DNA of 60,107 nt from assembly GCF_000739635.1 (NCBI RefSeq), contig NZ_BATQ01000130.1, positions 1-60,107 of the forward strand. The letters run 5' to 3'. The stretch comes from Verrucomicrobium sp. BvORR034. Lineage in GTDB: Bacteria > Verrucomicrobiota > Verrucomicrobiia > Verrucomicrobiales > Verrucomicrobiaceae. The position numbers and the translations under genes are program-made. The notes below the pieces were generated by a model that did not search any database, was not told the origin of the DNA, and was given only the letters and a program-made list of their open reading frames with translations. Positions 1-28,290 of this stretch are shown here, one piece after another. The first letter of the stretch is position 1; each line of letters opens with the position of its first letter.

Positions 1-1205
1 AAGTCTCCGGCACGCCGGGCGAGTTTGGCCTTGAGCCAGCGAGCGGCCGGGCTGGTGCCCTCGGAGAGCTTCAACCAACGGCCAGCATCTTCATACTTCC
101 CCATGCTGTAGGCCACCCAGCCCAGGTACTCCGCATCCGGTGTGGACTTTACACCGGTCTTGGCGATGGCCGTCAGCCATCGAGCCTGCCGGGCAGGGTC
201 CGGCTTGGAGACCCCGCTGTCATTGTCCCAGGTGGAACCGACGCCAACCGCCAGAACATGAGCGGTGACAAGACGGCGCAGCACGGGATCTGCGGCGGCC
301 TTGGCCAGAGCGGCCTCTGTCGAGTCTACCGCATAGGCCGTTCCGACCGCGGGAGACACCTTCACCGGATCTTCATTTGAATACGGAGACGAATCGCGAT
401 CCGGCACCAGATACTTCAGCGAGACCACCGCGGACACATCGCCAAGTGACAACTGAGTCAGGTATAGCCTGGCAGATTGCGCCGCATGGCCGGATTCCAT
501 CTCCGCCAGGGCTTCCCACCCATAACTCTCCGCCGCCAGGCCCAAACCATCGGCGAATCCGTCCTTGGCCAGCTTGCGCGTTTCCTGAAACCGTTTCACC
601 GCCTCATCATACTTTTTCTCACCCAGCGCCAGCTTCCCCAGCATGTAAGCCGCCCAGGTGGAGCGATACTTGCGCTCCTCTGCCGGACGCAGGAGCAGCG
701 CTTCCCACGCCGACCTGGCCTTCGCGTTGTCACTGTCCATGGCGAGCGCTCCCGCATGGTAATCGGAGAATTCGCCCGGCACTTCGTCCGCTGCAGTCGC
801 TTCAGCATCCCCTTTGGCGATGCCGCTCAGCTTTTGTCTGGCGTGCCGGTGGGCTTGCAATGCTTTGGCCTGGTCTGCAGTCTTCACCAAGCCGGCTTTG
901 ATTGCCGCCTCGAACTCCTCGATATCCACCCTGGCGGTAAAGGCTTGCCGATAGCCCTCGAAGGCCTCCTGATCCGTGGAGTCTTCCGGATAGGGGGCTG
1001 GGACCAGTTCCTCAGGCGCTTCCTGCTCTGCCGCCAGTCGCTTGACCTCCAGTTCCCAGAAAAACTCTGGTGCCGCCACCAGGGGTTCCCCTCGTTCACT
1101 GATCCATGAACGGGGCATCCACATCCCCGTGGCAAAGACTTGTGCAGAGGCACCTGCGATACCGACCAATAGCCCAACTCTAGCGAACAGGGACAACTTC
1201 AACAT
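1..1205 (-). CDS. Secreted repeat-rich protein, 3' end outside window (partial)
   Basis: A minus-strand reading frame stays open from an ATG at 1205 to the left edge, about 401 residues. The N-terminus (MLKLSLFARVGLLVGIAGAS) is a typical signal peptide, so export is inferred. The body is Ala/Lys/Glu-rich and helical, with TPR/Sel1-like helical pairs such as AAYMLGKLALGEKKYDEAVKR and LGWVAYSMGKYEDAGRWLK, where a small-residue and aromatic pattern recurs. I infer a tetratricopeptide-type scaffold and cannot name a substrate. The start overlaps the end of the upstream DUF3142 gene by 26 bp, so the two are probably co-transcribed and translationally coupled. No catalytic motif is visible in the part present. 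The C-terminus is not available. Confidence 0.75.
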   Translation of the reverse strand, partial: MLKLSLFARVGLLVGIAGASAQVFATGMWMPRSWISERGEPLVAAPEFFWELEVKRLAAEQEAPEELVPAPYPEDSTDQEAFEGYRQAFTARVDIEEFEAAIKAGLVKTADQAKALQAHRHARQKLSGIAKGDAEATAADEVPGEFSDYHAGALAMDSDNAKARSAWEALLLRPAEERKYRSTWAAYMLGKLALGEKKYDEAVKRFQETRKLAKDGFADGLGLAAESYGWEALAEMESGHAAQSARLYLTQLSLGDVSAVVSLKYLVPDRDSSPYSNEDPVKVSPAVGTAYAVDSTEAALAKAAADPVLRRLVTAHVLAVGVGSTWDNDSGVSKPDPARQARWLTAIAKTGVKSTPDAEYLGWVAYSMGKYEDAGRWLKLSEGTSPAARWLKAKLARRAGD

Positions 1206-5825: not shown

Positions 5826-7187
5826 TCAGGACTTCGGCGGGGGCGGTTCATCATCCTGCACCGTTCGCTTGTACCAGTCACGCAGGGTCACGTTCCCCTC
5901 GCCCAAGCCCCCCTGAATCGATCCCTTTTCTGCTGCCATGCGTTGCGACAAGTAGATGCCCGAATGTCCGCTGGCCATGAACGCCACAAAACAGGCGACC
6001 GCAAAGTAGACCGCATAGTGAGCGCCAAATAACTCGATGCCCATGAGCGTGCACGCCAACGGCGTATTCGCAGCCCCGGCAAAGACAGCAATGAAACCGA
6101 GCGCCGCAAACAGCCCAACCGGCTCCTGAAGCAGGGCTCCAATGGCATTTCCCAGCGTCGCGCCCACATAGAACAGCGGGGTCACCTCGCCCCCTTTGAA
6201 TCCGCTGCCCAAAGTCACGCTGGTAAACAAGAGCTTGCCCAGCCAGCTCCAGCCCGAAGCCCCACCCGGTTCAAATGAAGACATGATCGAGACAGCCCCA
6301 CCCGGCGGCGCGTGCACCCCCAATCCCAAGAAATCCCTGGTGCCCGTAAGGAAGACCAGGCCGATGACCAGCAGCCCTCCCAACACGGGCCGAAGCGGGG
6401 CGAAGGGCAGCACCCTGGCAAAACACCGCTGCAATCCATGAGTCACTTCTGAAAACAGGCGGCTGGCCAGACCAAAGCAGATCGCAGCACCCGCCACCTT
6501 CACCAGCAATACCGCATGGAAAGCAGCGTGACTGCCTGCCCCAGTAGCCACATCCAGATGGTAAATGGTGTGATGCACTCCCCAGGCGGAACAGGTGGCG
6601 TCGCCCACAATGCTGGCGAGCAGCACCGGGACCAGAGCCTCGTACTGCACCCGGCCGACCACCAGCACCTCCATGGCAAAGACGGCACCGGCAAGCGGCG
6701 TGCCAAAAACGGAACCAAATCCCGCGGAAACGCCGCACATCAGCATCATCCGGCGCGATGCAGTGCCGACACGCAACCAGCGGGAAAGTAGAGCCGCCAG
6801 GCTGCCTCCCATTTGCACAGCAGTCCCCTCCCGCCCTGCCGAGCCTCCAAACAAATGGGTAACGAGGGTACCCAGCAACACCAATGGAGCCATGCGGGCC
6901 GGCACCCCTCCCCCGGGGGCGTGGATCTCCTCCAGGATCAGATTGTTGCCCTTGTCAGAACCCCGACCCCAAAAATGATAAAGCAGCCCCACCAGCAACC
7001 CTCCCACAGGCAGAGCCCACAACAGCTGTGGGCTCTGCCACTGCATCGCAGTCACCCAGTCCAGCGCCTGGAGAAACAAGGCACTCGCACTGCCCGCCAG
7101 CACCGCCACCGGCAGCGCCAGGAGCATTCTCCTGAATAACGGGACAAACTCCGTCGCCCACCGACGCCCTGTGGTGGCCACGTTCAT
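5826..7187 (-). CDS. ClC-family chloride channel/transporter
   Basis: 453 residues from ATG 7187 (a TTG three codons upstream is an alternative). The protein is almost entirely hydrophobic helices, as expected for the ClC fold. Selectivity-filter regions can be seen: GGGVPARMAP, the GSAGREGTAVQMGG loop containing the gating glutamate (family GREGP, here GREGT), and LGSGFKGGEVTPLFYVGATLG. No CBS domains follow, so it is the short bacterial form that moves chloride or exchanges it for protons across the inner membrane. It is convergent with dapL and divergent from the glucan operon. A role in acid or osmotic balance is inference from the family, and the adjacency to osmoregulated glucan genes is suggestive only. 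Confidence 0.93.
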   Translation of the reverse strand: MNVATTGRRWATEFVPLFRRMLLALPVAVLAGSASALFLQALDWVTAMQWQSPQLLWALPVGGLLVGLLYHFWGRGSDKGNNLILEEIHAPGGGVPARMAPLVLLGTLVTHLFGGSAGREGTAVQMGGSLAALLSRWLRVGTASRRMMLMCGVSAGFGSVFGTPLAGAVFAMEVLVVGRVQYEALVPVLLASIVGDATCSAWGVHHTIYHLDVATGAGSHAAFHAVLLVKVAGAAICFGLASRLFSEVTHGLQRCFARVLPFAPLRPVLGGLLVIGLVFLTGTRDFLGLGVHAPPGGAVSIMSSFEPGGASGWSWLGKLLFTSVTLGSGFKGGEVTPLFYVGATLGNAIGALLQEPVGLFAALGFIAVFAGAANTPLACTLMGIELFGAHYAVYFAVACFVAFMASGHSGIYLSQRMAAEKGSIQGGLGEGNVTLRDWYKRTVQDDEPPPPKS

Positions 7188-7407
7188 TCCCTGCAACGGG
7201 TTCCTTCACCCCGGACGCTTCTGCCGTTTGCTGCCATGATGCACACTGGATTCATTAGCTTGTGTCTAGGAATTAAACTCGACGACCGCCTCTCGCAACC
7301 CGCGCGGCAAAATCCATTTTGAACATGCCACGCGCAACGCTTGACGGAAAAGGAACTCGCGGCATTCTTGCCGCGCTTCCGCACCTTTTTCTGTGAAGCA
7401 TCGCACT

Positions 7408-9072
7408 ATGCATCGCCGTTACACTCTCGCAGGTCTGTGCTCGTTGGTTTTGTCGCTGCCCGCCGTGGCGCAAACTCCCGCACCGGCACCCTCTCCAGCG
7501 CCTGCGCCCGCCCCGCAAGCCGCCCCCAGCCCGGCTCCAACTCCCGCGCCTGCGCCCGCTCCGGCACCAGCGCCAGTTCCGGCCGTCCCGGTGGAGGTGG
7601 CTCCATCGCCTGTTGCGGGCATCCCGCCGATCCGCACCTATCTCGACCTGGAGGCCTATGCCTCCCAGCTGGCCCAGAAGCCCTATGTGGCTCCGGCCAT
7701 GAAGCTGGACCCGTTTTTCGAAGGATTGAAGTACGACGGCCATCGCCAGATCCGCTTCAAGCCTGAAAAGGCGCTCTACGGCGATGTGGACCACTCCTAC
7801 AAGGTGGAGTTTTTCCACCCCGGTTGGATGTTCAGAAAGCCCGTCGAATACTTCCAGATTGATGGCGGCCAGCCCACCTTCATCCCTTTCGACAAAACGC
7901 TTTTCAATTATGGTGATCTGAAGGTCCCCGACCAGGCGATCTACCCGAACGGTTACAGCGGCATGCGCCTCCTGGCTCCCGACACGCTCCTCGACAAGCG
8001 TTTTGAGTTCATGGTTTTCATGGGCGCCAGCTACTTCCGAGCTGTCACCACCAAGCAGGGCTGGGGTCTCTCCGCTCGCGGCCTGGCTATCAACACCGTT
8101 GGTGGCGAACCTGAGGAATTCCCTGACTTCACTCATTTTTGGTTCCTCACCCCCAAGCCGGGTGACAAGGTCTTTCACTTCTATGCCCTCCTCAACGGTC
8201 CCAGCGTGACCGGCGCCTATGAGTTCGAAATCGAACCTGGCGAAACGACGGTCATGCGCATCAGCGGCTCCATCTTCCTCCGCAAGGTCGTGAAGCTTCT
8301 GGGCCTGGCTCCTTTCTCCAGCATGTTCTGGTATGGGGAGAACACCCATCCCAAACCCCTCGACTTCCGCCCTGAGGTGCATGATTCCGACGGTTTGCTC
8401 ATCGAGCAGGCTCACGCACCCACCTTGTGGCGCCCCTTGGACAACGGCCGGGAACTTCGCCACAGCGTTTTCGCGATTGAAGGCATCAAGGGCTTTGGCC
8501 TGCAGAAGCGTGACCGCGAGTTCAAGAACTTCGAAGACCTTGAGGCCCGCTACCACGAGCGCGTCGCCGTGTGGGTGGAACCGATCGAAGGTTTCGGCCG
8601 CGGCAAACTGCACTTGATTGAAATCCCGACCGGTGAAGAGACCTGGGACAACGTGGTCACCCTCTGGGAACCCGACATCTTCCCCACTTCCACCGAGCCG
8701 CTGCGCTTTGCCTACAAGCTCAACTGGCTGAAGGAGCATGAGCACTCGCTCGCCAAGGTGACCGCCAGCCGCTGGGGTGAGGGCGTTGCCACCACGGAAG
8801 TCCTGAACGATTTCGTGTTCGTCCTGGACTTCACGAAGGGCCCCGTCCCTGCCAACAAGCCTCAAGGCTGGGTGCCAGACGTCGCAGTCAACATCCAGGG
8901 CGAGGCCAAAGTGCTCGACAAACGCGTGATGGCCAATCCCGAGACCGGTGGCTGGCGTGCGTTCTTCAAGCTCGACATTCCGCCCACCACGAAGTTGCTG
9001 GAAATCACCTGTGATCTCCTCGACGACAAAAATCCCATTTCCGAGCGCTGGAACTACCAATGGCGTCGATAG
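7408..9072 (+). CDS. Periplasmic glucan biosynthesis protein, OpgG/OpgD family
   Basis: 554 residues from ATG 7408; a GTG at 7393 is also in frame. A signal peptide (MHRRYTLAGLCSLVLSLPAV) is followed by an unusually long Pro-Ala linker at about residues 23-70. The MdoG domain then begins (YDGHRQIRFKPEKALYG, KVEFFHPGWMF, GYSGMRLL, MVFMGASYFRAV, GLSARGLAINT, FWYGENT, PLDFRPEVHDSDGLL). The family shapes the beta-1,2-glucan backbone in the periplasm; OpgD and OpgG homologues have been shown to be beta-1,2-glucanases. It heads an operon with an unknown gene and opgH. Whether it is OpgG or OpgD cannot be decided by eye. Confidence 0.95.
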   Translation: MHRRYTLAGLCSLVLSLPAVAQTPAPAPSPAPAPAPQAAPSPAPTPAPAPAPAPAPVPAVPVEVAPSPVAGIPPIRTYLDLEAYASQLAQKPYVAPAMKLDPFFEGLKYDGHRQIRFKPEKALYGDVDHSYKVEFFHPGWMFRKPVEYFQIDGGQPTFIPFDKTLFNYGDLKVPDQAIYPNGYSGMRLLAPDTLLDKRFEFMVFMGASYFRAVTTKQGWGLSARGLAINTVGGEPEEFPDFTHFWFLTPKPGDKVFHFYALLNGPSVTGAYEFEIEPGETTVMRISGSIFLRKVVKLLGLAPFSSMFWYGENTHPKPLDFRPEVHDSDGLLIEQAHAPTLWRPLDNGRELRHSVFAIEGIKGFGLQKRDREFKNFEDLEARYHERVAVWVEPIEGFGRGKLHLIEIPTGEETWDNVVTLWEPDIFPTSTEPLRFAYKLNWLKEHEHSLAKVTASRWGEGVATTEVLNDFVFVLDFTKGPVPANKPQGWVPDVAVNIQGEAKVLDKRVMANPETGGWRAFFKLDIPPTTKLLEITCDLLDDKNPISERWNYQWRR

Positions 9073-16992: not shown

Positions 16993-17496
16993 GACATCCT
17001 CCTGAACAATCCAGTATCACATGGCTACCTCTCCAATGAGGTACCCCACCATATCCGGGGACGGTTGTGGGTGATCGGTTGTTCAGAACCCGTCATCGTT
17101 GAGCTTCGGGGTAATTTCCTCCGTGACATCGCAGGATGTCGCATCAGTTTCTTCAATCCCTTCCCCGAGCCCAGTCTGGAAGACACGCTCGCGATGCATT
17201 CGCATCAGACGGGGACGGCTGGCGAGATGTCCGCCTCCCGGCGCGTCAGCCAGCTCTGGCAGAGAAGTTGCCGGCCGAGCCACCCCTGTTTCGTTTTCGA
17301 CAACTCCACACTGAAAAACATGCTGTTGTTGGAGTGGTTCAACCCCCAAGGTCAGCGGGTTCTCATCCGCGCCTGCCACTGGCAAGTTGGCGTTTCTGAC
17401 AGACGCTGGGAGTTGACCGAAGCCCAGGAGATGGCACACATACGGGCCACCCGCATTCAGAGACGTCAGTTCTTGCTGACTCGGGAAGGGCGCTAG
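16990..17496 (+). CDS. Unknown protein upstream of the CHAD gene
   Basis: 168 residues from ATG 16990; the frame is open upstream but the leader before this ATG is not protein-like. I do not recognise the family. The sequence opens MDILLNNPVSHGYLSNEVPHH and has short beta-like segments (RGRLWVIGCSEPVIVELRG, CRISFFNPFPEPSLED, LLLEWFNPQGQRVLIRACHW), and ends in a charged helix (ATRIQRRQFLLTREGR). There is no signal peptide or membrane helix, so it is cytoplasmic. It precedes the CHAD protein by 33 bp on the same strand, likely as an operon. The strand pattern may indicate a small beta-sandwich ligand or nucleic-acid binder, but that is a guess. Confidence 0.7.
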   Translation: MDILLNNPVSHGYLSNEVPHHIRGRLWVIGCSEPVIVELRGNFLRDIAGCRISFFNPFPEPSLEDTLAMHSHQTGTAGEMSASRRVSQLWQRSCRPSHPCFVFDNSTLKNMLLLEWFNPQGQRVLIRACHWQVGVSDRRWELTEAQEMAHIRATRIQRRQFLLTREGR

Positions 17497-17529
17497 CCTG
17501 CCGATATCCGGTGGGCCACCGCTCCGGCA

Positions 17530-18411
17530 ATGCAGCCGCTCACGTCCGTGATTGCCCGGTGCTCCACTTCTGAAAAAGCTCATGCCGCCCCTCCTGAGGC
17601 TGCGGTGTGGCTGAAGCGTCTTCTCGTGCATATGGCCACCCTGGCGGAGCAGGATGCCCACCGGGTCCAGGCCCACCCGGACACCGCCATCCATGCGCTC
17701 CGCAAGCGCATGAAAAAACTCCTGGCCCTGCTGCGCCTCGCCCGCCCTGCCCTGTCGGTCGAGCAGTTTGCCACGCTCAAGGGAGCGATCCGGAATCTCA
17801 AACGCACCGTCGCCACCCAGCGGGATCAAGTGGTGATGGATCAGCTCCTAAAGTCCCTCGACCACGCCGGACTCTGCCCCAAGGATGACCAGGGCCGGAA
17901 ACTTCGGCGCAAGTCCGTGCGTCCCCCGGTGGTGACCGAGGCCACTCTAGAACAGCTCACCCGGCAGGCTTCCAGTTTGACAGACCGGCTGGGACGACTG
18001 CGACTGTTTTCCCTTTCTTGGGAAACCGTGGCCGAGGCCTATACCAAGACTTACCGCAAAGGTCACAAGGCATCCGAACGGAGCCACAAGGATACCGGCA
18101 CAGAGGCACTGCACTCCTGGCGAAAGGTCGTCAAAGACCACTACTACCAGACACTGGCACTCTATGTGTGGCTGGGACACCCCCGTCGATTGCGGCGCAC
18201 CCGCAGGCTCAGTTCCCTGCTCGGCAAGGTGCATGACATTGATGTCTTTGTCCGAACGCAACAGGTCGATGAGTCAACCCGCTCAGCGCTTGAAGACAGA
18301 CGCGAGAAGTTGCTGTCGAAAATTCAGAAAAAAGGCGCCCGCGTGTACGCCAAGTCTTCTCATGAAATGGAGGAAGAGGTGAAGACTCTGCTGCCGGAAC
18401 TGGAGGTCTGA
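17530..18411 (+). CDS. CHAD domain protein
   Basis: 293 residues, all predicted helix, with the conserved-histidine alpha-helical domain signature: HALRKRMKKLLALLRLARP (about residues 56-74), a second HSWRKVVKDHYYQTLALY (about 197), and LGKVHDIDVFVR (about 234). Clusters of Arg/Lys line the helices. CHAD domains bind inorganic polyphosphate and are often paired with CYTH triphosphatases; no CYTH domain is present here. I infer a polyphosphate-granule-associated cytoplasmic protein. The start at 17530 follows the unknown gene by 33 bp. A GC-rich hairpin without a T-run lies at about 18423-18451 behind it. Confidence 0.93.
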   Translation: MQPLTSVIARCSTSEKAHAAPPEAAVWLKRLLVHMATLAEQDAHRVQAHPDTAIHALRKRMKKLLALLRLARPALSVEQFATLKGAIRNLKRTVATQRDQVVMDQLLKSLDHAGLCPKDDQGRKLRRKSVRPPVVTEATLEQLTRQASSLTDRLGRLRLFSLSWETVAEAYTKTYRKGHKASERSHKDTGTEALHSWRKVVKDHYYQTLALYVWLGHPRRLRRTRRLSSLLGKVHDIDVFVRTQQVDESTRSALEDRREKLLSKIQKKGARVYAKSSHEMEEEVKTLLPELEV

Positions 18412-18480
18412 GGAAAACAAAATAGCGGCACCGGGTTCCCCAAGTGCCGCCAGATGGATCTCCCAAAGAAACGCGATGCC

Positions 18481-18957
18481 CTAGGCTCCGCCTGCACAGG
18501 CCGATTTCATGGCCTCCTGCATCTCTTCCGGCGTCACATCCTTGATGTGCGTGGCGATGGACCAATGATGACCGAAGGGATCTTCCACCTTGCCATAGCG
18601 GTCACCCCAGAAGGCATCCTCAATCGGCATGATCACCTTCGCGCCAGCATCCACCGCTTGCTTGAAGAGGTCGTCCGCATTCTCCACCTGCAGGTGGATC
18701 GTCACAGACGCCCCTTTGAGTGCGGCCGGGCCCAAGCAACCCCAGTCTGGCATCTGGTCCACAAGCATCACCATGGAGTCCCCTATCTTCACCGCGGCGT
18801 GCATGATTTTCCCATCGGGTGTGGGCATGCGGCAGATCTCGGTGGCACTGAATGCCTTTTTGTAGAATTCGATCGCATCCGCAGCCCCATCACAGATCAG
18901 GTGGGGGGTCACGGTGCGCATATCGCTTGGTACTGCTTCCACTTTGCTCGTGCTCAT
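18481..18957 (-). CDS. VOC-family (glyoxalase/PhnB-like) protein
   Basis: 158 residues. The fold is two beta-alpha-beta-beta-beta modules: TPHLICDGAADAIEFYKKAFSA, a MHAAVKIGDSMVMLVD strand pair, then VTIHLQVENADDLFKQAVDAGA and WGDRYGKVEDPFGHHWSIATH. The last motif is typical of PhnB-like VOC proteins. Such proteins are metal-dependent isomerases, dioxygenases or antibiotic-binding proteins, and the substrate is not predictable. It is divergent from the YciI-like gene across a 276-bp gap. VOC/PhnB and YciI genes are often neighbours of ECF sigma factors, but none is present in this window. Confidence 0.9.
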   Translation of the reverse strand: MSTSKVEAVPSDMRTVTPHLICDGAADAIEFYKKAFSATEICRMPTPDGKIMHAAVKIGDSMVMLVDQMPDWGCLGPAALKGASVTIHLQVENADDLFKQAVDAGAKVIMPIEDAFWGDRYGKVEDPFGHHWSIATHIKDVTPEEMQEAMKSACAGGA

Positions 18958-19233
18958 AACAAGTTGGTTTGGTTTGGTTTACGTATCGTTGGACTTGCTC
19001 GGGAGGGTCCCGGTTGGGTGAGGTTGGGAAAAGCCGGTGTTTCCGGCATTTCATCGTCACGACGAATGGGAGCGGTCGTTTCGGACAGTCCCCGCCATTT
19101 TATTTGAATTAGGTCGTTCCCACTCCAGCAGACACGCTCAAGGGGAGCCAGAAATCCGATGCAAACAATTCGTATCTGTCCCATCTGAGCTTTCCTGTTC
19201 GTCATCCAGAGGAACTCCACACCTACCTCCTTC

Positions 19234-19644
19234 ATGAACTCCACCTCCCCCTCCAATCCCACCCGGTACATGCTCCTCTTTCGTGATGGCGACGCCACCT
19301 ATCACCAGATGTCCCCGGCTCAGCGCCAGGAGCTGCTCCAGCAATGGAACGAGTGGTACCAGCGCCTGTTTTCACAGGGCAAACTCGAGGGAGGACACCC
19401 GCTCGAAGGCACAGGCCGGGTAGTCTCCCGGTCTGGGAGTCGCACGGTGGATGGCCCCTTTGTGGAATCCACCGAGGCTGTCGGTGGCTACTTTCTCCTG
19501 ACGGTGAACACCCTGGAAGAGGCGGTGGAGATCGCCAGCGACTGCCCCAGCGTGCGTCTCGGCCTTACCGTGGAGGTCAGGCCCGTGGCTGATATGTGCC
19601 CCAGCCTGCGTCAGTTCCAGGAAGCTCTCGCTGAGGCGGTCTAG
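19234..19644 (+). CDS. YciI-related (DGPF domain) protein
   Basis: 136 residues. The opening TRYMLLFRDGDATYHQMSP, the central TVDGPFVESTEAVGGYFLL (the DGPF signature) and ASDCPSVRLGLTVEVRPV at the end define the YciI-like/DGPF family, small ferredoxin-fold proteins of uncertain activity. It is cytoplasmic. The upstream 276 bp are shared with the divergent VOC gene. Downstream lies a palindrome and the large TerD-like gene. No ECF sigma factor, the common partner of this family, is seen. Confidence 0.92.
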   Translation: MNSTSPSNPTRYMLLFRDGDATYHQMSPAQRQELLQQWNEWYQRLFSQGKLEGGHPLEGTGRVVSRSGSRTVDGPFVESTEAVGGYFLLTVNTLEEAVEIASDCPSVRLGLTVEVRPVADMCPSLRQFQEALAEAV

Positions 19645-19723
19645 GCCATTGCGCCCCCGCTTCAACTCGCACGGGGCCATCTGTTCTTTCCTATACCCCA
19701 GCAACACGGGGTTCTATTTTTTT

Positions 19724-19747
19724 GATCCTGACTGCCCAGTCAGGATC
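19724..19747. repeat. 24-nt palindrome upstream of the TerD-like gene
   Basis: GATCCTGACTG-CC-CAGTCAGGATC is a perfect 11-bp inverted repeat with a two-base loop, preceded by seven Ts. The Ts are on the wrong side for a plus-strand terminator, and the complementary strand has As after the stem, so it is not a classical intrinsic terminator on either strand. It lies 80 bp after the YciI gene and 172 bp before ATG 19920. Possible roles are an operator or a hairpin in the leader of the downstream operon. Confidence 0.6.
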
Positions 19748-19919
19748 CCCCGGTGTTTATGCCATAAGCTTGCAATCACCACGCTGGCGAAGTATTCCTT
19801 TCACGGCGGCTCTGAAGATCCTTCCTTCTAACCTTCGAAACCCTAGGGTCTTCGCTTTCCGCCCTATTCAGCGCCCCAGCGGCACACCAGCCGACCGGGG
19901 CGCCTGTCTTTCGCCAGCT

Positions 19920-21983
19920 ATGAACTCCATCTACATCCGGCGCCGTAGCAAGGTGACGGTTCCCGCATCCGACGGCGGCACCACGCCCCTACCAGTCCTT
20001 GCCGCGCTACAGAAGAATCTTGAGTCTCTCGGCTATCTCCTCTCGGAAGAGGTCATTCGAGGGTTGGGCAACCTCTCACGCACAAAGGTGGAAGGTTTCT
20101 ACCACCGCCTGACTCATGACCTCCAAGTCCTGGTAGGTGCCCATCGTCCGTTCGAGCCCTTCTACCCCAATTTCCCTGCGCAAGTCATGGAGATGGAGGA
20201 AGCAGAACTCTACTTCCGGGCCATCATGTACTATTGGACGCTGGACCGGCAGGAACTCCCCGCCGAGCCCCGGCCTCCTCTGCAGGACCGCCCCGCCCTT
20301 CGCGTCATCCGTCTGGGTGATACGGCCGATTTCAATCAGGCGATGGCAGATCTCATGCGCTCCCGTGTCGCGTACTCCCCGCAGGACAAAGAGGACATCA
20401 CCTGGCTGGTGTCACAGTACCGGGACGACGTGCTTCCACTGCTGCCCGCCTCTGTCACCTCCCGGGAAAACCTCGCTCACCTCGGCTCAGAGTTGGTGAA
20501 ACACACCTCCATTGGGATCGCCTATCTCGACAGTCGGATGAAGACCGCCACAGATGTGTTGCGTCTGGCGGTGGCTCTGAGCGGAGGAGATGTCTCGTTG
20601 GCAGAGCCGGTTCGATTTGGCAAAATCGGCCGTCGCCTGCGATTGAAATTCCTCGCATGGCTGGAAAGCTTCCCGAACCGGGTCGAAGATATGTTGCGGT
20701 GGAAGCCCCGATGGACACGGTTGGGAGAACGCCTCCATCCCGGCGAGTATGCCAAGCGTTTTCCGGAAACCGCGAAGGCGTTCGATGTGTTACGGAACAA
20801 TCTGCCGTCCCCCACTCTTAACAGCGCGTTGGAGGCAGGACTGCTCCACCGTGATGTTCCTGGTCTCCTCCAACTGCTCAAGAGAAGACCGGGCGAGTTT
20901 GCTCGCAGGCTGGATCACCTGCTTCGGATCAGCTCTTCACCAGACGAGGTGGTGGCTGCGTTCAGCCAGCAAGCACACGAGGTTTCCACCTCGGTGTTGC
21001 TGCAGTGTCTCGTCCATTTCCGCCATCGCCACTCCCCTGCCCCGCTGAGAGCTTTTTTCCCGAAGGGCACCCTTGCGAACGTCTTTGCCACCACAGAGCC
21101 TCTCCCTCCCATTCCTCCAGCCATCACGGAGAAGCTCGTCGCCATCTGCGATGAAGCGCTGCTCCAGCACTACGCAAAACTGCCGCCACTGGGCCGTTGT
21201 TACCTCGATCCCGGATTGAAGGACTACCAGGTCCCCTTCGCTCTGCGATCAGCCTCCAAATCGCTCCGGACCCTGGTACGCGGCAGCCGGCTGCCTTTGC
21301 CAGACGGGGAGGTTCTCCGCTTCTTCATCTGGTGGAAGAACGGCCGGAGCCGGGTGGACATCGACCTGTCCGCCACAATGTACGATGAGAAATTCCAGTA
21401 CGTTGACTTGCTCAGCTACTACAGCTTGAAGAACTTCGGCGGACATCATAGCGGCGACATCGTGGATGCTCCGCACGGAGCAGCAGAGTTCATTGATGTC
21501 ACCCCAGAATTGTGCCGCCAGAAAGGCGTGCGCTACATCGTCATGAGCCTCCACAGTTTCACAGAGCAGCCCTACTGCGAGCTTCCGGAGTGCTTTGCCG
21601 GTTGGATGGCGCGTTCTGCTCCCAATTCCGGCGAGATCTTTGAACCCTCCACCGTGGTGGACAAAGTGGATGTCGCCGCCAACACTCGCATTTGCCTGCC
21701 CGCCATTTTTGACCTCGTAGATAGGAAGGTCATCTGGGCGGATATTGCCCTCACCAAACACCCTCCCGTTTACAACAACGTCCACAGTTCCCTGCGCGGG
21801 GTTTCCCTCATGGTGCGAACGCTTGCGCAACTGCGCAAACCGGATCTGCACACGCTGTTTGACCTGCACATCCGTGCTCGCGGGCAACAGGCAGCAAGTC
21901 TGACGGAGGCCGACACCGTCTTCGCGGTTGAACAAGGGATCACCCCATTTGACCTGGATCACATCAAGGCCGACTTCTTGTGA
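19920..21983 (+). CDS. Large cytoplasmic protein with C-terminal TerD-like domain
   Basis: 687 residues from ATG 19920 (MNSIYIRRRSKVTVP). The N-terminal 110 residues include VLAALQKNLESLGYLLSEEV and FYPNFPAQVMEMEEAELYFRA. The middle is helical. The C-terminal 200 residues contain RVDIDLSATMYDEKFQYVDLLSYYSLK, HSGDIVDAPHGAAEFIDV and RKVIWADIAL, which look like a TerD-type calcium-binding stress domain. From memory this resembles the MXAN_6230/SCO0854 family, but I see no cysteine pattern of a RING finger here. No signal peptide. It is the first gene of a tight three-gene unit (22 bp to the next gene). Molecular function unknown; a stress or phage-defence-associated role is conceivable. Confidence 0.8.
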   Translation: MNSIYIRRRSKVTVPASDGGTTPLPVLAALQKNLESLGYLLSEEVIRGLGNLSRTKVEGFYHRLTHDLQVLVGAHRPFEPFYPNFPAQVMEMEEAELYFRAIMYYWTLDRQELPAEPRPPLQDRPALRVIRLGDTADFNQAMADLMRSRVAYSPQDKEDITWLVSQYRDDVLPLLPASVTSRENLAHLGSELVKHTSIGIAYLDSRMKTATDVLRLAVALSGGDVSLAEPVRFGKIGRRLRLKFLAWLESFPNRVEDMLRWKPRWTRLGERLHPGEYAKRFPETAKAFDVLRNNLPSPTLNSALEAGLLHRDVPGLLQLLKRRPGEFARRLDHLLRISSSPDEVVAAFSQQAHEVSTSVLLQCLVHFRHRHSPAPLRAFFPKGTLANVFATTEPLPPIPPAITEKLVAICDEALLQHYAKLPPLGRCYLDPGLKDYQVPFALRSASKSLRTLVRGSRLPLPDGEVLRFFIWWKNGRSRVDIDLSATMYDEKFQYVDLLSYYSLKNFGGHHSGDIVDAPHGAAEFIDVTPELCRQKGVRYIVMSLHSFTEQPYCELPECFAGWMARSAPNSGEIFEPSTVVDKVDVAANTRICLPAIFDLVDRKVIWADIALTKHPPVYNNVHSSLRGVSLMVRTLAQLRKPDLHTLFDLHIRARGQQAASLTEADTVFAVEQGITPFDLDHIKADFL

Positions 21984-22005
21984 TCGAGGTACCGGCCCCA
22001 TTCCC

Positions 22006-22341
22006 ATGACCCACTATCACGTTTGGTTTAGCTTCAAGGAGGACATCCCCGAACAACAGGGACTGGGGGCCGTAGCCGCCTTCCTCTCCAAACTTTGCAA
22101 AGAGTCCCGGGCGGTGGACTTTCACCTGGCCCGAAACAACGGCCAGCCTCCCCGGTCCAAGCTCTTGCCCTACCATGCCGAAATTTGTTTCGCCGACGGC
22201 GAGGCCTTGGGATCGGCCATGAAACTGCAGACTCAGGAAGGCGTCCACGCCGGACTTCACGGCCAGATGCTGGAAGTGATCGCCCAGTTTCACGTTGAAG
22301 TGTTTAGCGGTATCGCGATGCCGACGATCGGAGAATTGTAA
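22006..22341 (+). CDS. Small unknown protein, possibly DUF6614
   Basis: 111 residues from ATG 22006 (MTHYHVWFSFKEDIPEQQGL). An alpha/beta ferredoxin-like pattern is suggested: a first strand (THYHVWFSFK), a helix (LGAVAAFLSKLCKES), a second strand (AVDFHLARNN), then YHAEICFADGEAL. DUF6614 is the nearest family I recall, with low certainty. It starts 22 bp after the TerD-like gene and its TAA stop overlaps the ATG of the following gene by one base, so all three genes are likely one translationally coupled operon. No catalytic motif seen. Confidence 0.75.
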   Translation: MTHYHVWFSFKEDIPEQQGLGAVAAFLSKLCKESRAVDFHLARNNGQPPRSKLLPYHAEICFADGEALGSAMKLQTQEGVHAGLHGQMLEVIAQFHVEVFSGIAMPTIGEL

Positions 22342-23303
22342 TGCCCGCGATTCAGGAGGACATTCCCAGCTTTGGGCTGTATGCTTCGTGCCATGCTGCC
22401 ACGGTTTGCGTTCATGAATCGCGTTTGCTGGTTGCCTACTTCGGGGGGCCGTATGAGGGACACCGGCGCACAGCCATCTGGATATCCATCTCTTCAGAGG
22501 GCGTCTGGGAAGCACCACGCAAGGTAGCTGACGGCAAGGTCTGTACAGGGATGGAACGAGCCTGCTGGAACCCGGTGTTCTTCCGATTCAATGACTGCTT
22601 GAAACTCTACTTTAAGGTGGGCGCTTCGCCTCAGAACTGGCGAGGCTACGAGATGGAAAGTCCCGATTGGGGGCACACTTGGAGTCATCCAGCCCCCCTC
22701 CCTCCCGGAATCCTGGGCCCAACAAAAAATCCACCCATTCACAGCGGTCCTCTGGTTGTAAGCGGAAGCAGCGACGAGCGATCGGGGTGCGCCCTCCACT
22801 TCGAACTCACTACGAATGGTCATCACTGGAACAAGGTCTTTCCAGCCTCACATCTCGGACTGGAGGGCTGCATTCAGCCTGCGATTCTCGACCTGGGTGA
22901 AAAACACCTGCTGGCCTTGGCCCGAAGTTCCATGGGTTTCCTGGTTCAAACACGCTCCCGAGACGGTGGACGCACGTGGGGCACTGTTGAAACCACCGTA
23001 CTCCCCAATCCAGACTCAGCCATATGCACTTTGAGTCTGGCTCCCGGCAGGCATGTACTCGCCTACAACCACTCAACCATGTCCCGTACACCTCTCGTAC
23101 TGGCCATCAGTGCCGACGGCACAAGCTGGCGAGACACGCAGACAATCGCAAGCGGTGATGGGGAATTTTCCTACCCAGCATTGGACTTCGATGGCCGCGC
23201 CATCTGGCTTGCCTACACGGTCAACCGCACCGCGATCCGCCTGGCAAAGATAGTATCAGACGACTTGTTCAGGCCCCATCATCAAGATGGACCTCTTCCT
23301 TGA
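22341..23303 (+). CDS. Sialidase/BNR-fold protein without signal peptide
   Basis: 320 residues. Several Asp-box-like turns are visible: SPDWGHTWSHP (about residue 109), SRDGGRTWGTV (about 206) and SADGTSWRDT (about 258), the hallmark of sialidase six-bladed propellers. Other propeller motifs are ACWNPVFFR, TKNPPIHSGPL, and the acid/Tyr region GEFSYPALDFDGRAIWLAYT. The family includes exo-alpha-sialidases and lyases, most of them exported, but this one has no signal peptide and appears cytoplasmic. It is the third gene of the TerD-like operon, start and stop overlapping by one base. Its 3' end overlaps the convergent arginyltransferase-like gene by 35 bp. Substrate unknown. Confidence 0.85.
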   Translation: MPAIQEDIPSFGLYASCHAATVCVHESRLLVAYFGGPYEGHRRTAIWISISSEGVWEAPRKVADGKVCTGMERACWNPVFFRFNDCLKLYFKVGASPQNWRGYEMESPDWGHTWSHPAPLPPGILGPTKNPPIHSGPLVVSGSSDERSGCALHFELTTNGHHWNKVFPASHLGLEGCIQPAILDLGEKHLLALARSSMGFLVQTRSRDGGRTWGTVETTVLPNPDSAICTLSLAPGRHVLAYNHSTMSRTPLVLAISADGTSWRDTQTIASGDGEFSYPALDFDGRAIWLAYTVNRTAIRLAKIVSDDLFRPHHQDGPLP

Positions 23304-23970
23304 GCTCAGACTTTTCTAATGGCCGCCACTCCCCTGACTCCCAGTCCAGGCCCTCCATTGCGTTGAACTGTTTCTTATAGTCGTAGTGACTGGGGCCAGT
23401 CATGGCGTAGCCAGGATAGTGATAGCGGAACCCTTGCTGTCGCGCCCACTCCAGCTCCAGCAGCATGGTAAAGATGCCCAGACTTCTGCGCGACTCCTCC
23501 GGCTCAAAGATCCCGTAAACGCTGGAGACGGCGGCATGGCCCACATCCACAAAGCTGACAGCGACCAGTCTGTCCCCCAGACGACACTGGAGTTCAAGAC
23601 ATTGACACGGTCCTTTTTCGGGAGTTTCCCCCAGGAAGCAGGCCAGCGATTCCGGGACGTTCTCTTTGAAACGGGCCTTGTGCCGCTCAAACATCGCCAC
23701 GGTCTCCTCAGAAACGCATATCGGCGTCCAGAGAACCGTCAGGTCGGCATTCTTTCTCAGCACACGGCGCTGGCTCTTGCTTAGCGAGCTAGCCTGCAGA
23801 TCAATCCGCAGCGGTACAATACCCTGCCACTGGCCAGCATGTTCCGCCACGCTATACCGGAAGAACTGCCTCCCAAAATGCCGCCAGCCCGTGGACCACA
23901 ACAGGTCCATCCCCTGCGGCGGCACGACCTCCGCATCCACGGAATCCCAGATCAGCGGCGGGAGGGGCAT
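23269..23970 (-). CDS. Arginyl/leucyl-tRNA-protein transferase-fold protein
   Basis: 233 residues. The segments LSKSQRRVLRKNADLTV, SVYGIFEPEESRRSLGIFTMLLELEWARQQGFRYHYPGYAM and the ending HYDYKKQFNAMEGL are the C-terminal acyltransferase half of ATE1/Bpt proteins, which transfer Arg or Leu from tRNA to protein N-termini as a degradation signal. The CxxC-containing N-terminal half of ATE1 is missing, so the protein is about the GNAT-like half only and may act on a different acceptor. It is cytoplasmic. It is convergent with the sialidase-fold gene, overlapping 35 bp, and followed upstream by a low-complexity inverted repeat and the ABC transporter. Confidence 0.82.
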   Translation of the reverse strand: MPLPPLIWDSVDAEVVPPQGMDLLWSTGWRHFGRQFFRYSVAEHAGQWQGIVPLRIDLQASSLSKSQRRVLRKNADLTVLWTPICVSEETVAMFERHKARFKENVPESLACFLGETPEKGPCQCLELQCRLGDRLVAVSFVDVGHAAVSSVYGIFEPEESRRSLGIFTMLLELEWARQQGFRYHYPGYAMTGPSHYDYKKQFNAMEGLDWESGEWRPLEKSELKEEVHLDDGA

Positions 23971-24061
23971 GAACGGAAAAGTTGGAGGTTAGGAGTTAAT
24001 TGATTGACAACTGCCTTTGGAACTCAATCCACCCATAACGTCTAACTCCTCACTTCCCCCT

Positions 24062-25939
24062 TCACTCCTCCAACTGCAACTTGGCCAACGTGCGATACAA
24101 GCTGTTCTCCTTCGCATAGAGTTCATCATGGGTTCCGCGCTCGATGACGGTGCCGCCGCTCATCACCAGGATTTGATCCGCCCGGCGCACGGTGCTCAGA
24201 CGGTGGGCAATGATGATGCTGGTGCGATTGGCCATGAGCTTGTCCAGAGCCTCCTGGACGAGGCGCTCACTCTCGGCATCCAGACTGCTCGTGGCTTCAT
24301 CCAGAACAAGGACCGCCGGATTGGCCAGGATCGCACGGGCGATGGCCACACGCTGGCGCTGCCCTCCGCTTAGCTGGGTGCCACGTTCGCCCACCAGGGT
24401 CTGATAGCCCTCTGGCAGCTTCTCAATAAACAGGTGCGCATTGGCCTGGCGGGCCGCTTCCACCACTTCAGCATCTGTCGCATCTGGCCGGCCATACCGG
24501 ATGTTCTCCTGAATGGAACCACCAAAGAGCAGCACCTCTTGAGGAACCAGCGAGAAGTTTTTGCGGAGGGCGGCCAGCGGATAGTCCCGGGCCGGGCGAC
24601 CGTCCAAAAGCACCTCACCTTTTTCGGGTTCGTAGAAACGATACAACAAATTGACCACCGTGCTCTTCCCGGCACCACTGGGGCCAACGAGAGCAATCTT
24701 CTGCCCCGCCTTTGCCTCCAAGTTAAAGTCCGCCAGTACCGTGGTGTCGGTACGCGAAGGATAGTGAAACCACACGCCTTGCATGGCGATGTCACCGTGA
24801 AGTCGAACATACTCATCGGGACGCAGTTCCTCCTCCGGCTCCTCCAGGATCTCCCGCACGCGTTCAAGCGCGCCCACGGCTTTTTGCAGTTGGGAGACCA
24901 GTTCCGGCAGCGTGGCGATGGAGCCACTCATGAAGGCGGTGAACAACGTGAGCTGGATGAACCGTTCACGGTCAATTTCACCATTGATGACCATTCGCAC
25001 CCCGAACCAGACACAAAGCGTGATGACACTGGTGAAGACAAAGATGATGAAGGCAACGAACGCCGCCCGCAACCAGGCCCCGCGCAAGGCAGCGCTCAAA
25101 AAGCGATCCAGGAAGCTGTGATAGCGACCGATCTCCTGGGCCTCGTTGGCAAAGGCTTTCACACTGGTGATGCTGGTGAGGCTCTCATCCACCACCACCT
25201 GGCTGGCGGCGAGCTCGTCCTGGGCCATCCGGGAGACCTTGCGGATTCTGGCTCCAAAGATGGCCACCAGCAGCACGGCTGCAGGAATGCAGGCCAGCAT
25301 GAAGAGGGAAAGTTTGACCGACTTGGTGAAAACCAGAACGATCCCCGCCGCCAGCAGGATGCTATGGCGGATGATCTGTGGGATCGTGGAAACAAGCGTC
25401 TCCCGGATCACCTCCACGTCATTTGCCAGTCGGGAACCCAATTCCCCCACCCGACGTGCCTGAAGTGTGGCCATCGGCAGCTTCAGGATGCGGCTGAAGG
25501 TGTCCACTCTGACCTGAACCAGAGCACGCTCAGCCGCCTTGCTGAAGAAGAAGATGCGCCAGAAAGCCAGCAACGCCTGCACCCCCAGCACCGTGCCGAT
25601 GAGCACGGCGTAGTGATTGATCGTGTGCAGGGCCTGACCAATGTCCTCTCCGTGCGCCGGCACGGCCCGTGCCACAATCTTGCCCATGAACTCCGGCAGG
25701 AACAGCGTCAGCAGCGCGGTGATGATCAGCACAAATAACGCCGGGATGAACACCGACGCATGCGGCTTCAGGTACTTGATAAAAAAGCCCGCCTCTTCTT
25801 TGAAGCCGGATTTGAGATTGCTCTTGCGCTCGGAGGAGGATGATCGCGACACAGGTGGGTGGATGGAAGGAAGGGAACGATTGATAAACAGGGGCCGGGC
25901 AGCCCCAAAAGATGGACCTAGTAGAAACGCACCGTCCAA
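24062..25939 (-). CDS. ABC exporter, fused membrane and ATPase domains
   Basis: 625 residues as drawn; the true start may be a GTG at 25852, since the first 29 residues are not conserved-looking and overlap the preceding gene. Six membrane helices (from FIPALFVLIITALLTLFLP onward) are followed by a nucleotide-binding domain: Walker A GPSGAGKST, Q-loop SLVPQEVLLFGGSI, signature LSGGQRQRVAIARA, Walker B VLVLDEATSSLD and H-loop IIAHRLSTV. The layout is that of MsbA/BmrA-type exporters, which act as homodimers and export lipids, peptides or drugs. It is probably co-transcribed with the SGNH-hydrolase gene upstream. Substrate unknown. Confidence 0.93.
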   Translation of the reverse strand: MDGAFLLGPSFGAARPLFINRSLPSIHPPVSRSSSSERKSNLKSGFKEEAGFFIKYLKPHASVFIPALFVLIITALLTLFLPEFMGKIVARAVPAHGEDIGQALHTINHYAVLIGTVLGVQALLAFWRIFFFSKAAERALVQVRVDTFSRILKLPMATLQARRVGELGSRLANDVEVIRETLVSTIPQIIRHSILLAAGIVLVFTKSVKLSLFMLACIPAAVLLVAIFGARIRKVSRMAQDELAASQVVVDESLTSITSVKAFANEAQEIGRYHSFLDRFLSAALRGAWLRAAFVAFIIFVFTSVITLCVWFGVRMVINGEIDRERFIQLTLFTAFMSGSIATLPELVSQLQKAVGALERVREILEEPEEELRPDEYVRLHGDIAMQGVWFHYPSRTDTTVLADFNLEAKAGQKIALVGPSGAGKSTVVNLLYRFYEPEKGEVLLDGRPARDYPLAALRKNFSLVPQEVLLFGGSIQENIRYGRPDATDAEVVEAARQANAHLFIEKLPEGYQTLVGERGTQLSGGQRQRVAIARAILANPAVLVLDEATSSLDAESERLVQEALDKLMANRTSIIIAHRLSTVRRADQILVMSGGTVIERGTHDELYAKENSLYRTLAKLQLEE

Positions 25940-28290
25940 CGGGACGTCGGCTTGTCCGTGAGCTCCAGCACCGCCAGCGACTCAGCATCGTCACGGTAAC
26001 GGCCGTTGCTAGTCAGGATGAAGGGCAGATAGCTTCCGCCGGTCCCTGTCTCGTTGGCCTGCCAGAGGGAGAACTGGGTGTTGACGCCGACCTGGCTGTT
26101 GCCATTCCCCATGGCCCACTCATGCAGATACAGATAAGACCGCGGGACCGTCATGGTGAATCTCCTTGAACCATCCGGGCGGCTTGTCAGACGGGCTTTC
26201 ACCGCCTTCTCGTCGAAGAACATGCCATATCCCGTGCCAAACACCCATGGAGGCAGAGGCCCAACTTTGGCGTCGCCGTCAGCAGCCGCGGCCGCCACCC
26301 GGATGACATCCGTGGTGCCGTGCATGAGCCGTTTGCCATAGCTGCGAGCATCGAGGTTCAAATCCACCTGCAAGGCCCCACCACCACCGGGATTGTCCTG
26401 CAGATTCAGGCCAAAGACATCCCAGGTCAGATAGAGGGCGTTCGAGTCCGCATCCGCACGGAAGGCCACACTCGGAGCCGCAGGTCCCGGCGTCGGAGGC
26501 GTCACGACCTGGTCTCGCACGTAGGCCGCAGGGCTCAGCAACACCGTCGTATCCTTGAGCCCGAGATTGCGCACCAGCTCGATCTCGCGGTCAAACTTCA
26601 AGACTTGTCCGCCAACGCTCACGGTCACGGCCAGGGTGCCTTTCTGGCGGCCTGGGGCATTGATCCCCGTCGGCAGCCTGACCGGGATGGCCAGGGGAGA
26701 CTCACCTTTAGGAGCCGCCTTGAAGGCACCGCCCCAAGCCTGCCCAAACCACTTGGCCTCCCACTTCCCGTCCACTGGCTGGGCACTCGTGTTGATGAGA
26801 CGGCCAGTGAGCTCTGCGATATTTTCTTGATTGTAGAGTACCCCTGTGTTCCACACCAACGCCACAGGCGTCATCGTGGCCCGGACCACTTCGATCCGGA
26901 CAGTGTCACCGCTCGTAATAACCACCGGCAGGCGGAGGTAGTAGTCCTGACTGGGGAGCAGATCCATCCGACCTCCACCCGAGGCGGGATCAGGAGCGGC
27001 GCTCCGTTCGTAGGTGATGTTTACCATCGCCTTTATGCCAGCTTTCAAGGTCACACGTGAGGGGGCATCCAGCGGACGCAGGCTAGAAGTGACCAATGGC
27101 AGGACTGTGTAGCTCCGCTCTTCCTGGGTCGGGTTCTCCAGGCGATAGGCCAGCTCGCACTTGCCGCCGCTCACCAGATTCGCCGTGGCACCGCCCACTT
27201 CCCAAGGCACCGGCCGGGGCCCGTTTAGAAGCTCGGCAAACACCCTCTTGCCCAGGGCCCGCTGGGTGACGCTGTTTGGATGCAGCCAGTCTGGAGGATT
27301 TACCATCTGGAAGCGCTGCTTCATCGCATCCACCACCTGCTGGAAAAGTCGCATCGCGATCTTGTCCGGATCAGGATCGTAGTCCTTGGCCACAGGGTTC
27401 TCCACCTTGGGCGCTGGAAGCGGTGGGGGCGGCGGATTGCCATCCAGGGTCGGCACGGGTGGCACCACGGCAGGCGGCGTGGGGGCCGCTGGCGCAGCTG
27501 CCCCAGGATTGCCCGCCGCTGAGGGATCCGTCTTGGGCTTTTTGGGTGGTGCCAGCGGAGACTTCCGGTCATCCACCTTGAGCAGCCAGGAGAGATCTCC
27601 GAGGTCTGCGAAGAATACCCCGTTGGCATCTGCCACCTCCCGCATCACATCGGCGTAAGGCCGGGTATGGGCCAGTCCCTGCTCAGGGACGTCACTCATG
27701 ATGACGGTGGGGCCACAGAGAATCAGGTCTGACTTCTCAGCCGCGACCAGATTCACCACCTGCTGCACGTAGCTCCGGTACACTTCCAGGGGAAGTCCAG
27801 AGTTGGCATCATTGATGCCGTAGCTCACGATCACGATGTCAGGCTTGTTTTCAAAAGCCACCGTGGTGAGAGGTTGGGTGGCGTGCAGCATGAGACGACC
27901 GCCGCGGGAGAAATTCTGAAGAGTAATCTCCGGTCCTTGCAGGGAGTGCAGCTTCTCCGGCTGCCCCTTGGGAGGACGAATGAGGCGGACACCGCCCGTG
28001 TAGGCGAACTGGTCCGCCAGCTCCTGGAGGAACACGCCGCTCCATGCTTTCAGGGCATTGCCATTGTCGGCATCGTTGCTTTGCATGTTCATCACACTGT
28101 CGCCGATACAGATCGCGTGGACGGGCTGACGGCGCAGCATCTTGGCGTAGGCACGGGGTACGAACTTTCGCAGCCGCACCTCCTGCTCCATGGTGAGGTC
28201 ATAACTGGCGGCCTGGAGACCCTGGGTGGCCAGCAGGGCAAAACAAACAACCAGACGGATGAGGGAAGTTGCCATTGGGGGGGTGGTCAT
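25918..28290 (-). CDS. Large secreted SGNH-hydrolase-like protein
   Basis: 790 residues from ATG 28290; ATG 28275 gives a cleaner signal peptide (MATSLIRLVVCFALLATQGL). The SGNH catalytic blocks appear in order: block I CIGDSVMN (Ser), block III SYGINDAN (Gly/Asn) and block V PDWLHPN (Asp-His). Between blocks III and V lies a Pro/Ala-rich insert of about 60 residues (PPKKPKTDPSAAG, PPPPPLPAPK), which is odd inside a catalytic domain. The C-terminal 400 residues are beta-rich and lack motifs I recognise; they end in a strand-like TSRWTVRFY. The role is likely extracellular esterase or deacetylase on polysaccharide. It overlaps the ABC exporter start by 22 bp. Confidence 0.85.
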   Translation of the reverse strand: MTTPPMATSLIRLVVCFALLATQGLQAASYDLTMEQEVRLRKFVPRAYAKMLRRQPVHAICIGDSVMNMQSNDADNGNALKAWSGVFLQELADQFAYTGGVRLIRPPKGQPEKLHSLQGPEITLQNFSRGGRLMLHATQPLTTVAFENKPDIVIVSYGINDANSGLPLEVYRSYVQQVVNLVAAEKSDLILCGPTVIMSDVPEQGLAHTRPYADVMREVADANGVFFADLGDLSWLLKVDDRKSPLAPPKKPKTDPSAAGNPGAAAPAAPTPPAVVPPVPTLDGNPPPPPLPAPKVENPVAKDYDPDPDKIAMRLFQQVVDAMKQRFQMVNPPDWLHPNSVTQRALGKRVFAELLNGPRPVPWEVGGATANLVSGGKCELAYRLENPTQEERSYTVLPLVTSSLRPLDAPSRVTLKAGIKAMVNITYERSAAPDPASGGGRMDLLPSQDYYLRLPVVITSGDTVRIEVVRATMTPVALVWNTGVLYNQENIAELTGRLINTSAQPVDGKWEAKWFGQAWGGAFKAAPKGESPLAIPVRLPTGINAPGRQKGTLAVTVSVGGQVLKFDREIELVRNLGLKDTTVLLSPAAYVRDQVVTPPTPGPAAPSVAFRADADSNALYLTWDVFGLNLQDNPGGGGALQVDLNLDARSYGKRLMHGTTDVIRVAAAAADGDAKVGPLPPWVFGTGYGMFFDEKAVKARLTSRPDGSRRFTMTVPRSYLYLHEWAMGNGNSQVGVNTQFSLWQANETGTGGSYLPFILTSNGRYRDDAESLAVLELTDKPTSRWTVRFY

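Follow-up and report, generated by a model that had tools for sequence, protein, structure and literature searches.

A RING-less MXAN_6230/SCO0854-type protein of Verrucomicrobium sp. BvORR034: predicted TerD fold, resemblance to Ro60/Rsr, and a possible place in RNA repair

The locus and the predicted structure of gene A

This work deals with a four-gene locus of Verrucomicrobium sp. BvORR034, and above all with its first gene, here called A. The DNA analysed, referred to below as the window, is a stretch of 60,107 nucleotides on contig NZ_BATQ01000130.1, in which A is followed by genes B, C and D. Judged by its homologues in the case of A, and by Pfam matches in the case of B, C and D, all four are real genes. 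The genes, and the parts of A that matter for the argument, are as follows.

19920..21983, + strand: gene A, 687 amino acids (aa), ATG start at 19920; RING-less relative of the MXAN_6230/SCO0854 family (NF041916, E 9e-141, and full-length homologues)
20244..20291, + strand: low-confidence loop of A, residues 109-124 (predicted local distance difference test, pLDDT, <50), roughly at the place of Prok-RING_4 in RING-bearing relatives
20301..21179, + strand: helical repeat part of A resembling Ro60/Rsr, residues 128-420 (2nvo, Z 9.9, 317 residues)
21261..21824, + strand: predicted TerD domain of A, residues 448-635 (Foldseek 2kxt, 3ibz, 2qz7; VIA-align Z 12-15)
22006..22341, + strand: gene B, 111 aa, ATG start; DUF6614 (PF20319, E 4.4e-12)
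22341..23303, + strand: gene C, 320 aa; BNR_2 protein of the sialidase superfamily (PF13088, E 3.5e-61)
23269..23970, - strand: gene D, 233 aa; arginyltransferase-like, ATE_C (PF04377, E 6e-22)

No Pfam family matches the sequence of A at E up to 1, including TROVE (PF05731), vWA, TerD (PF02342) and RING. The structure of A was predicted with AlphaFold2 from an alignment of 49 sequences (pLDDT 84.8; predicted template modelling score 0.70); this model replaced an earlier one from 7 sequences (pLDDT 74), for which there was no PDB match with E <0.001. A Foldseek search with the 49-sequence model returned six PDB matches at E up to 0.001: 2kxt, 3ibz, 2qz7 (two chains), 2qng and 9a6r_B. Entries 2kxt, 3ibz and 2qz7 are TerD or a homologue by name (Foldseek E 6e-5 to 3e-4; VIA-align Z 12-14), while 2qng is of unknown function and 9a6r_B is titled as a model of GLPD-SCP2. 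VIA-align places all six at about residues 448-635 of A with Z 12-15, followed by 7jtk_A with Z 11.9.

We regard the TerD fold of residues ~448-635 as firm for the predicted model. The original prediction, made from the sequence of this locus, had given A a TerD-like domain and had proposed structure prediction as a check; the fold appears in the predicted structure, although A itself has no Pfam match. In one relative from the window's phylum (L020), Pfam TerD is found at E 8.7e-5, with 22.5 bits against a cut-off of 25.3. Residues D480, D482 and D513 of A are invariant across the 49 sequences, and they may be calcium ligands, as the acidic residues of TerD domains are. What A shares with the tellurite resistance family is the predicted fold of residues 448-635, whereas in A this domain is fused to ~450 other residues. 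No Ter genes were seen adjoining A in a Pfam scan of the window.

The comparison of A with Ro60-type proteins was made on the full-length model. VIA-align of A with Rsr of Deinococcus radiodurans (2nvo) gives Z 9.9 and a root-mean-square deviation (rmsd) of 4.1 Å over 317 residues, in the model range 137..687. Lower down, at Z ≤7.8, come Ro with RNA (1yvp; Z 7.2, 241 aligned residues) and human Ro60 (9nen; Z 6.5, 318 aligned residues), in the company of further helical proteins that mostly have fewer aligned residues or a very high rmsd. Among the 30 invariant positions in residues 128-420, 11 are Arg or Lys (49 sequences). A resemblance of the helical part of the model to Ro60/Rsr (TROVE) is likely but unproven. 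It would extend to the overall layout, as seen against 2nvo and 9nen, except that TerD stands where Ro60 has vWA. Searching the profile A1 against PDB sequences returned a single match, at chance level. In BFVD, the matches of A are for the most part TerD-like proteins and phage proteins to which no function is assigned.

Spread of the family and the state of the locus in relatives

Against NCBIfam, A matches the MXAN_6230/SCO0854 RING family (NF041916) with E 9e-141 and 470.7 bits, which is under the curated cut-off of 600 bits. The likeness covers positions 3-106, 174-355 and 388-746 of the 842 in the model, but A lacks the RING finger (Prok-RING_4, PF14447). That domain is present in the relatives L118 and L119; RING-bearing relatives have it at about 130-175, the range seen in the Streptomyces relative. 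The Pfam text for Prok-RING_4 presumably mentions TerD together with repeats of the TROVE kind and considers a role in RNA processing possible; if so, the architecture of A has been noticed before.

By the names of their records, homologues of A of ~690 aa belong to Verrucomicrobia, Planctomycetota, Acidobacteria, Cyanobacteria, Armatimonadota, Bacillota and Proteobacteria. Plasmids add 33 records, of which 15 cover at least 80% of A, and relatives were also found in 11 phage records, two pairs of which are duplicates, and in 35 viral contigs. The PHROG match of A is phrog_33734, to which that collection assigns no function. Within one order, full-length A is present in 2 of 399 genomes, both already known carriers. 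The family is patchy, rare and mobile, and probably horizontally spread. At two loci (L017, 7066-7956; L018, 7210-8070) a gene shares a few bases with the 3' end of A; that of L017 has no Pfam match.

Among 96 related genomes, A is present in five, B in three, and the two together in two, namely the window's own genome and G003. The homologues of A in the four relatives are full length, at 93, 54, 55 and 54% identity. C finds some match in 78 of the 96, mostly distant copies at other places. Synteny at the locus extends over three genomes of the genus, and their comparison picks out two stretches of the window, neither assigned to a strand.

19818..21942: missing at the syntenic place in G002, where a scar of A is left (synteny comparison)
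22322..23320: replaced by 190 bp in G003, nearly all of C (synteny comparison)

G003 (DNA identity 90-91%) keeps A, B and D and has nearly all of C exchanged for the 190 bp; G002 (DNA identity 83-86%) keeps B, C and D and lacks the A region. The scar at the G002 junction consists of 41 shared bases and preserves the final 12 codons of A with its stop; the five differences within these bases all fall on third codon positions. We read the scar as the deletion of a once-working A, and a fresh insertion of A in the window's lineage is less likely. On this reading A-B-C would be the ancestral order of the genus, from which A and C have each been lost without the others.

A wider comparison was made with 80 loci of A from other genomes, the best 80 of 231 confirmed places, to which all counts of bacterial loci below refer. 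No match to B was found in these 80 loci, and C has one weak match, 7.4 kb from A (L098). A scan of 387 genomes of the phylum turned up DUF6614 in 8, and at these 8 loci A or C lies within the 1.5-kb flanks only at the window's own. Hence, sequence comparison does not support A-B-C as a conserved three-gene unit; B, C and D look like neighbours inherited at the locus rather than partners of A, and B and C are apparently bystanders. The original prediction, which had seen in the three genes an undescribed module and had suggested co-occurrence across genomes as a check, does not survive it, as the genes are found apart in G002, in G003 and in the outside loci. The tight spacing on which it drew is confirmed by the coordinates: 22 bp separate A from B, and B and C overlap at TAATG. 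C and D, which converge, have 35 bp in common at their 3' ends.

The same prediction described C as a BNR protein without a signal peptide, and this agrees with a BNR_2 score of 207.4 bits (Pfam cut-off 31.4) and with a reading by eye, without a predictor, on which no signal peptide is evident. Its description of D as the acyltransferase half of ATE1 has to be revised. Residues 22-219 of D align to positions 53-246 of the 247-position model of bacterial arginyltransferase (NF002346), with 123.2 bits against a curated cut-off of 170. D lacks about the first 30-50 positions and scores under the curated cut-offs, but on this alignment it is a nearly full-length transferase of the bacterial type, and measured against bacterial enzymes it is no half gene. 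None of A, B, C or D is matched by a PADLOC profile at E up to 1, and a defence-system identity was dropped on this ground. The idea that TerD marks a stress or conflict system here may fit in part, as RNA repair, given the relatives of A, and finds no support from PADLOC.

Upstream of A, Pfam identifies a CHAD-domain protein (window 17530-18411), a glyoxalase-type protein (18481-18957) and, directly before A, a YCII-related protein (19234-19644).

RNA-repair genes and tRNA clusters around relatives of A

Several bacterial relatives of A lie among genes of RNA repair. In Pelomonas sp. Root1237 (L057, 711-15768), the locus holds rtcR (divergent), Rsr, YrlA RNA, a 256-aa gene, rtcB, rtcA and A, with 28 transfer RNA (tRNA) genes and GOLLD RNA; the Rsr there has TROVE and a Ro60-type vWA. 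A Variovorax locus (L050) has rtcR, Rsr, YrlA and rtcB, with A further on and rtcA immediately after A. At a third locus (L086) the order is rtcR, rtcB, A, rtcA, with Rsr and YrlA not detected. Locus L020, from the window's phylum, has rtcR in divergent orientation to A, and on a plasmid (L118) three small genes lie between the two. A Paenibacillus locus (L113) has, within 8 kb of A, an Rsr (Pfam) and an RtcB-like match (29%, cut by the end of the locus), and on another plasmid (L129) an RNA ligase gene lies within a few kb of A.

In numbers, an RNA-repair gene was detected within 8 kb of A in 4 of the 80 bacterial loci, three of the four being from Burkholderiales; if each genome of 3-9 Mb held one repair locus, roughly 0.2 in 80 would be expected by chance. 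At least three tRNAs are found in 3 of the 80, one of which adjoins the RNA of the signal recognition particle and is probably a native cluster. TROVE occurs in at least 11 of 30 A-bearing genomes, a count that has no baseline and comes from a search that missed the Rsr of the Pelomonas genome. Clustering of open reading frames (ORFs) over 87 loci (the 80 plus 7 further ones, of which one lacks A) returned a cluster of ABC-type ATPases in 17 loci, and otherwise A itself, spurious overlapping frames and same-genus synteny in at most 10 loci. The ATPase, labelled by reading its sequence, was set aside as a common neighbour of A, being a very common kind of protein.

Among phages, one locus (L120) has tRNAs and RtcB near A, and two (L122 and L125) have tRNAs, a permuted transfer-messenger RNA (tmRNA) and RlaP. 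RlaP also adjoins A in phage L121 and, by tblastn, in L212. The permuted tmRNA genes in phage and viral records with relatives of A lie at 2895-3116 (L122), 3259-3561 (L125) and 31-256 (L206). At least three tRNA or tmRNA genes are present in 19 of the 35 viral-contig loci; with near copies merged, at least three tRNAs are present in 13 of 26. We also examined 26 long records, comprising 18 of the 35 viral contigs (those >80 kb) and 8 of the 11 phage records, with L187 and L188 as near copies. Their A loci contain 137 tRNAs, against 43.6 expected from the record totals, and 13 of the records have at least three. The expectation is each record's own average rather than one from permuted windows, with totals counted by Rfam and local numbers by ARAGORN. 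A Pfam tally of 123 ORFs near A in the viral contigs gave 102 families, among the 25 commonest of which are Thg1, the polyA/CCA-polymerase head domain, RNA_lig_T4_1, Thy1 and Metallophos (3 each), and RNA_ligase and PNKP phosphatase (2 each).

The window's own genome carries an rtc locus elsewhere, on contig C194 (L139), where rtcR, Rsr, a 346-aa gene, rtcB and rtcA stand in a row; YrlA has no match at that locus. The genes between Rsr and rtcB, here (7093-8133) and in Pelomonas (4750-5520), have no Pfam match. A second RtcB match, partial or divergent, lies on contig C200 of the same genome (G000, 64292-65140; L136). Sigma-54 control of A, of the RtcR type, was considered and rejected, as the window has 299 consensus matches against 297.9 by chance.

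What gene A may do

Taken together, the TerD fold, the likeness to Rsr and Ro60, the neighbours of A in rtc operons, beside RlaP and among viral tRNAs, and the rtc locus of its own genome form the basis on which we link A to RNA repair. The reading we favour, and to which we give an even chance, is that A combines a Ro60-like helical ring with TerD and is an RNA-binding scaffold or quality-control factor for the repair or decay of RNA, above all of tRNA. A would stand alone within a family of sporadic and probably horizontal spread, with a helical ring of the Ro60/Rsr (TROVE) kind and TerD at the place of vWA. The ring would bind structured or broken RNA, especially tRNA, while the TerD domain may bind a metal, a nucleotide or another small signal. 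A would then hand tRNAs to repair, by RtcB/RtcA, RlaP or RNA ligases, or to decay. In the window's genome it could act in trans with the rtcR-rsr-rtcB-rtcA genes of C194, to which it is unlinked. The parts that the data support directly are the TerD fold (by prediction), the spread of the family, the gene neighbourhoods and the separate losses of A and C.

We consider more tentatively, and with greater doubt than belief, a wider version of this proposal, in which A represents a second mobile Ro60-like RNA chaperone of bacteria and large phages. Its TROVE-type ring and TerD sensor would travel with tRNA clusters, Y RNA, GOLLD RNA and repair enzymes and, working alongside Rsr, would sense damaged tRNA or be a scaffold for it; the window's RING-less copy would be an unlinked, trans-acting form.

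Several observations weigh against a role in RNA repair. The structural likeness to Ro60/Rsr has Z values in a range, under ~13, that can reflect a common arrangement of helical repeats, and sequence proof of a link between A and TROVE fails, since hhalign of A against 3 or 14 TROVE proteins gave E 0.06-0.11 in three comparisons, none of them significant. Some relatives of A adjoin Rsr, Y RNA and rtcBA, but near A in the window there is no RNA gene or RNA-repair gene, and an Rfam scan of 17000-26000 gives no match to Y RNA at E up to 1. Most bacterial loci are likewise bare: in 76 of the 80, no RNA-repair gene was detected within 8 kb of A, and 75 have no tRNA. For fourteen repair queries (RtcR, RtcB, RtcA, Rsr, RlaP and ligase), only 1 of the 35 viral-contig loci gave a match, and 10 of the 26 long phage or viral records have no tRNA near A. 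Finally, RtcR is present in 42 of the 96 relatives and, among the 5 carriers of A, in only 3, so that no co-occurrence of A with RtcR is seen at the level of genomes.

The main competitor, which we judge rather unlikely, is that A is a stand-alone stress protein of the TerD type, for metal, tellurite or xenobiotics, with no role in RNA, its neighbours being those of cargo hotspots. TerD is indeed the firmest structural match of A, most bacterial copies do stand alone, and a Deinococcus relative (L131) has a TerB gene a few kb from A. Such a protein would, however, leave aside the recurrence of RNA-repair neighbours in Burkholderiales, in Paenibacillus, in the window's phylum and in several phages, as well as the match of the large helical part to Rsr and Ro60. 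A viral origin is less probable again: A would be mainly a phage gene for counter-defence or tRNA protection that bacteria took up from viruses. Its patchiness in bacteria and its relatives in 35 viral contigs and 11 phage records, many amid tRNAs, are in line with this, but the window's copy sits among syntenic chromosomal genes, and the direction of transfer is presumed. The proposal that A, B and C act together as a module for stress or defence is by far the least probable and already largely refuted. The spacing of the three genes and their seemingly ancestral order in the genus speak for it; against it stand the loss of A alone in G002 and of C alone in G003, the outside loci with no B and one weak C, and the silence of PADLOC.

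Published work provides some setting for the RNA-repair reading. One study finds TROVE genes alongside 20 of 29 tRNA clusters of archaea (PMC6333295). Another reports ROT/TROVE proteins and, in a separate section, TerD proteins in jumbo phages (PMC7824862). A third describes functional study of bacterial Ro60 relatives as coming mainly from one organism, with the role of Rsr and Y RNA in the RNA-repair operon still open (PMC7790460). In the titles, abstract openings and passages available on MXAN_6230, prokaryotic RING, TerD, TROVE, RNA repair and GOLLD, a body of text of incomplete coverage, a protein of the A type is not described.

If the RNA-repair reading is true, A would be a second Ro-like protein, with another C-terminal domain, in rtc operons and viral tRNA clusters. 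This would offer a new approach to the recognition of damaged tRNAs, would give TerD domains a job beyond tellurite resistance, and would explain genes that are annotated as hypothetical in several large phages.

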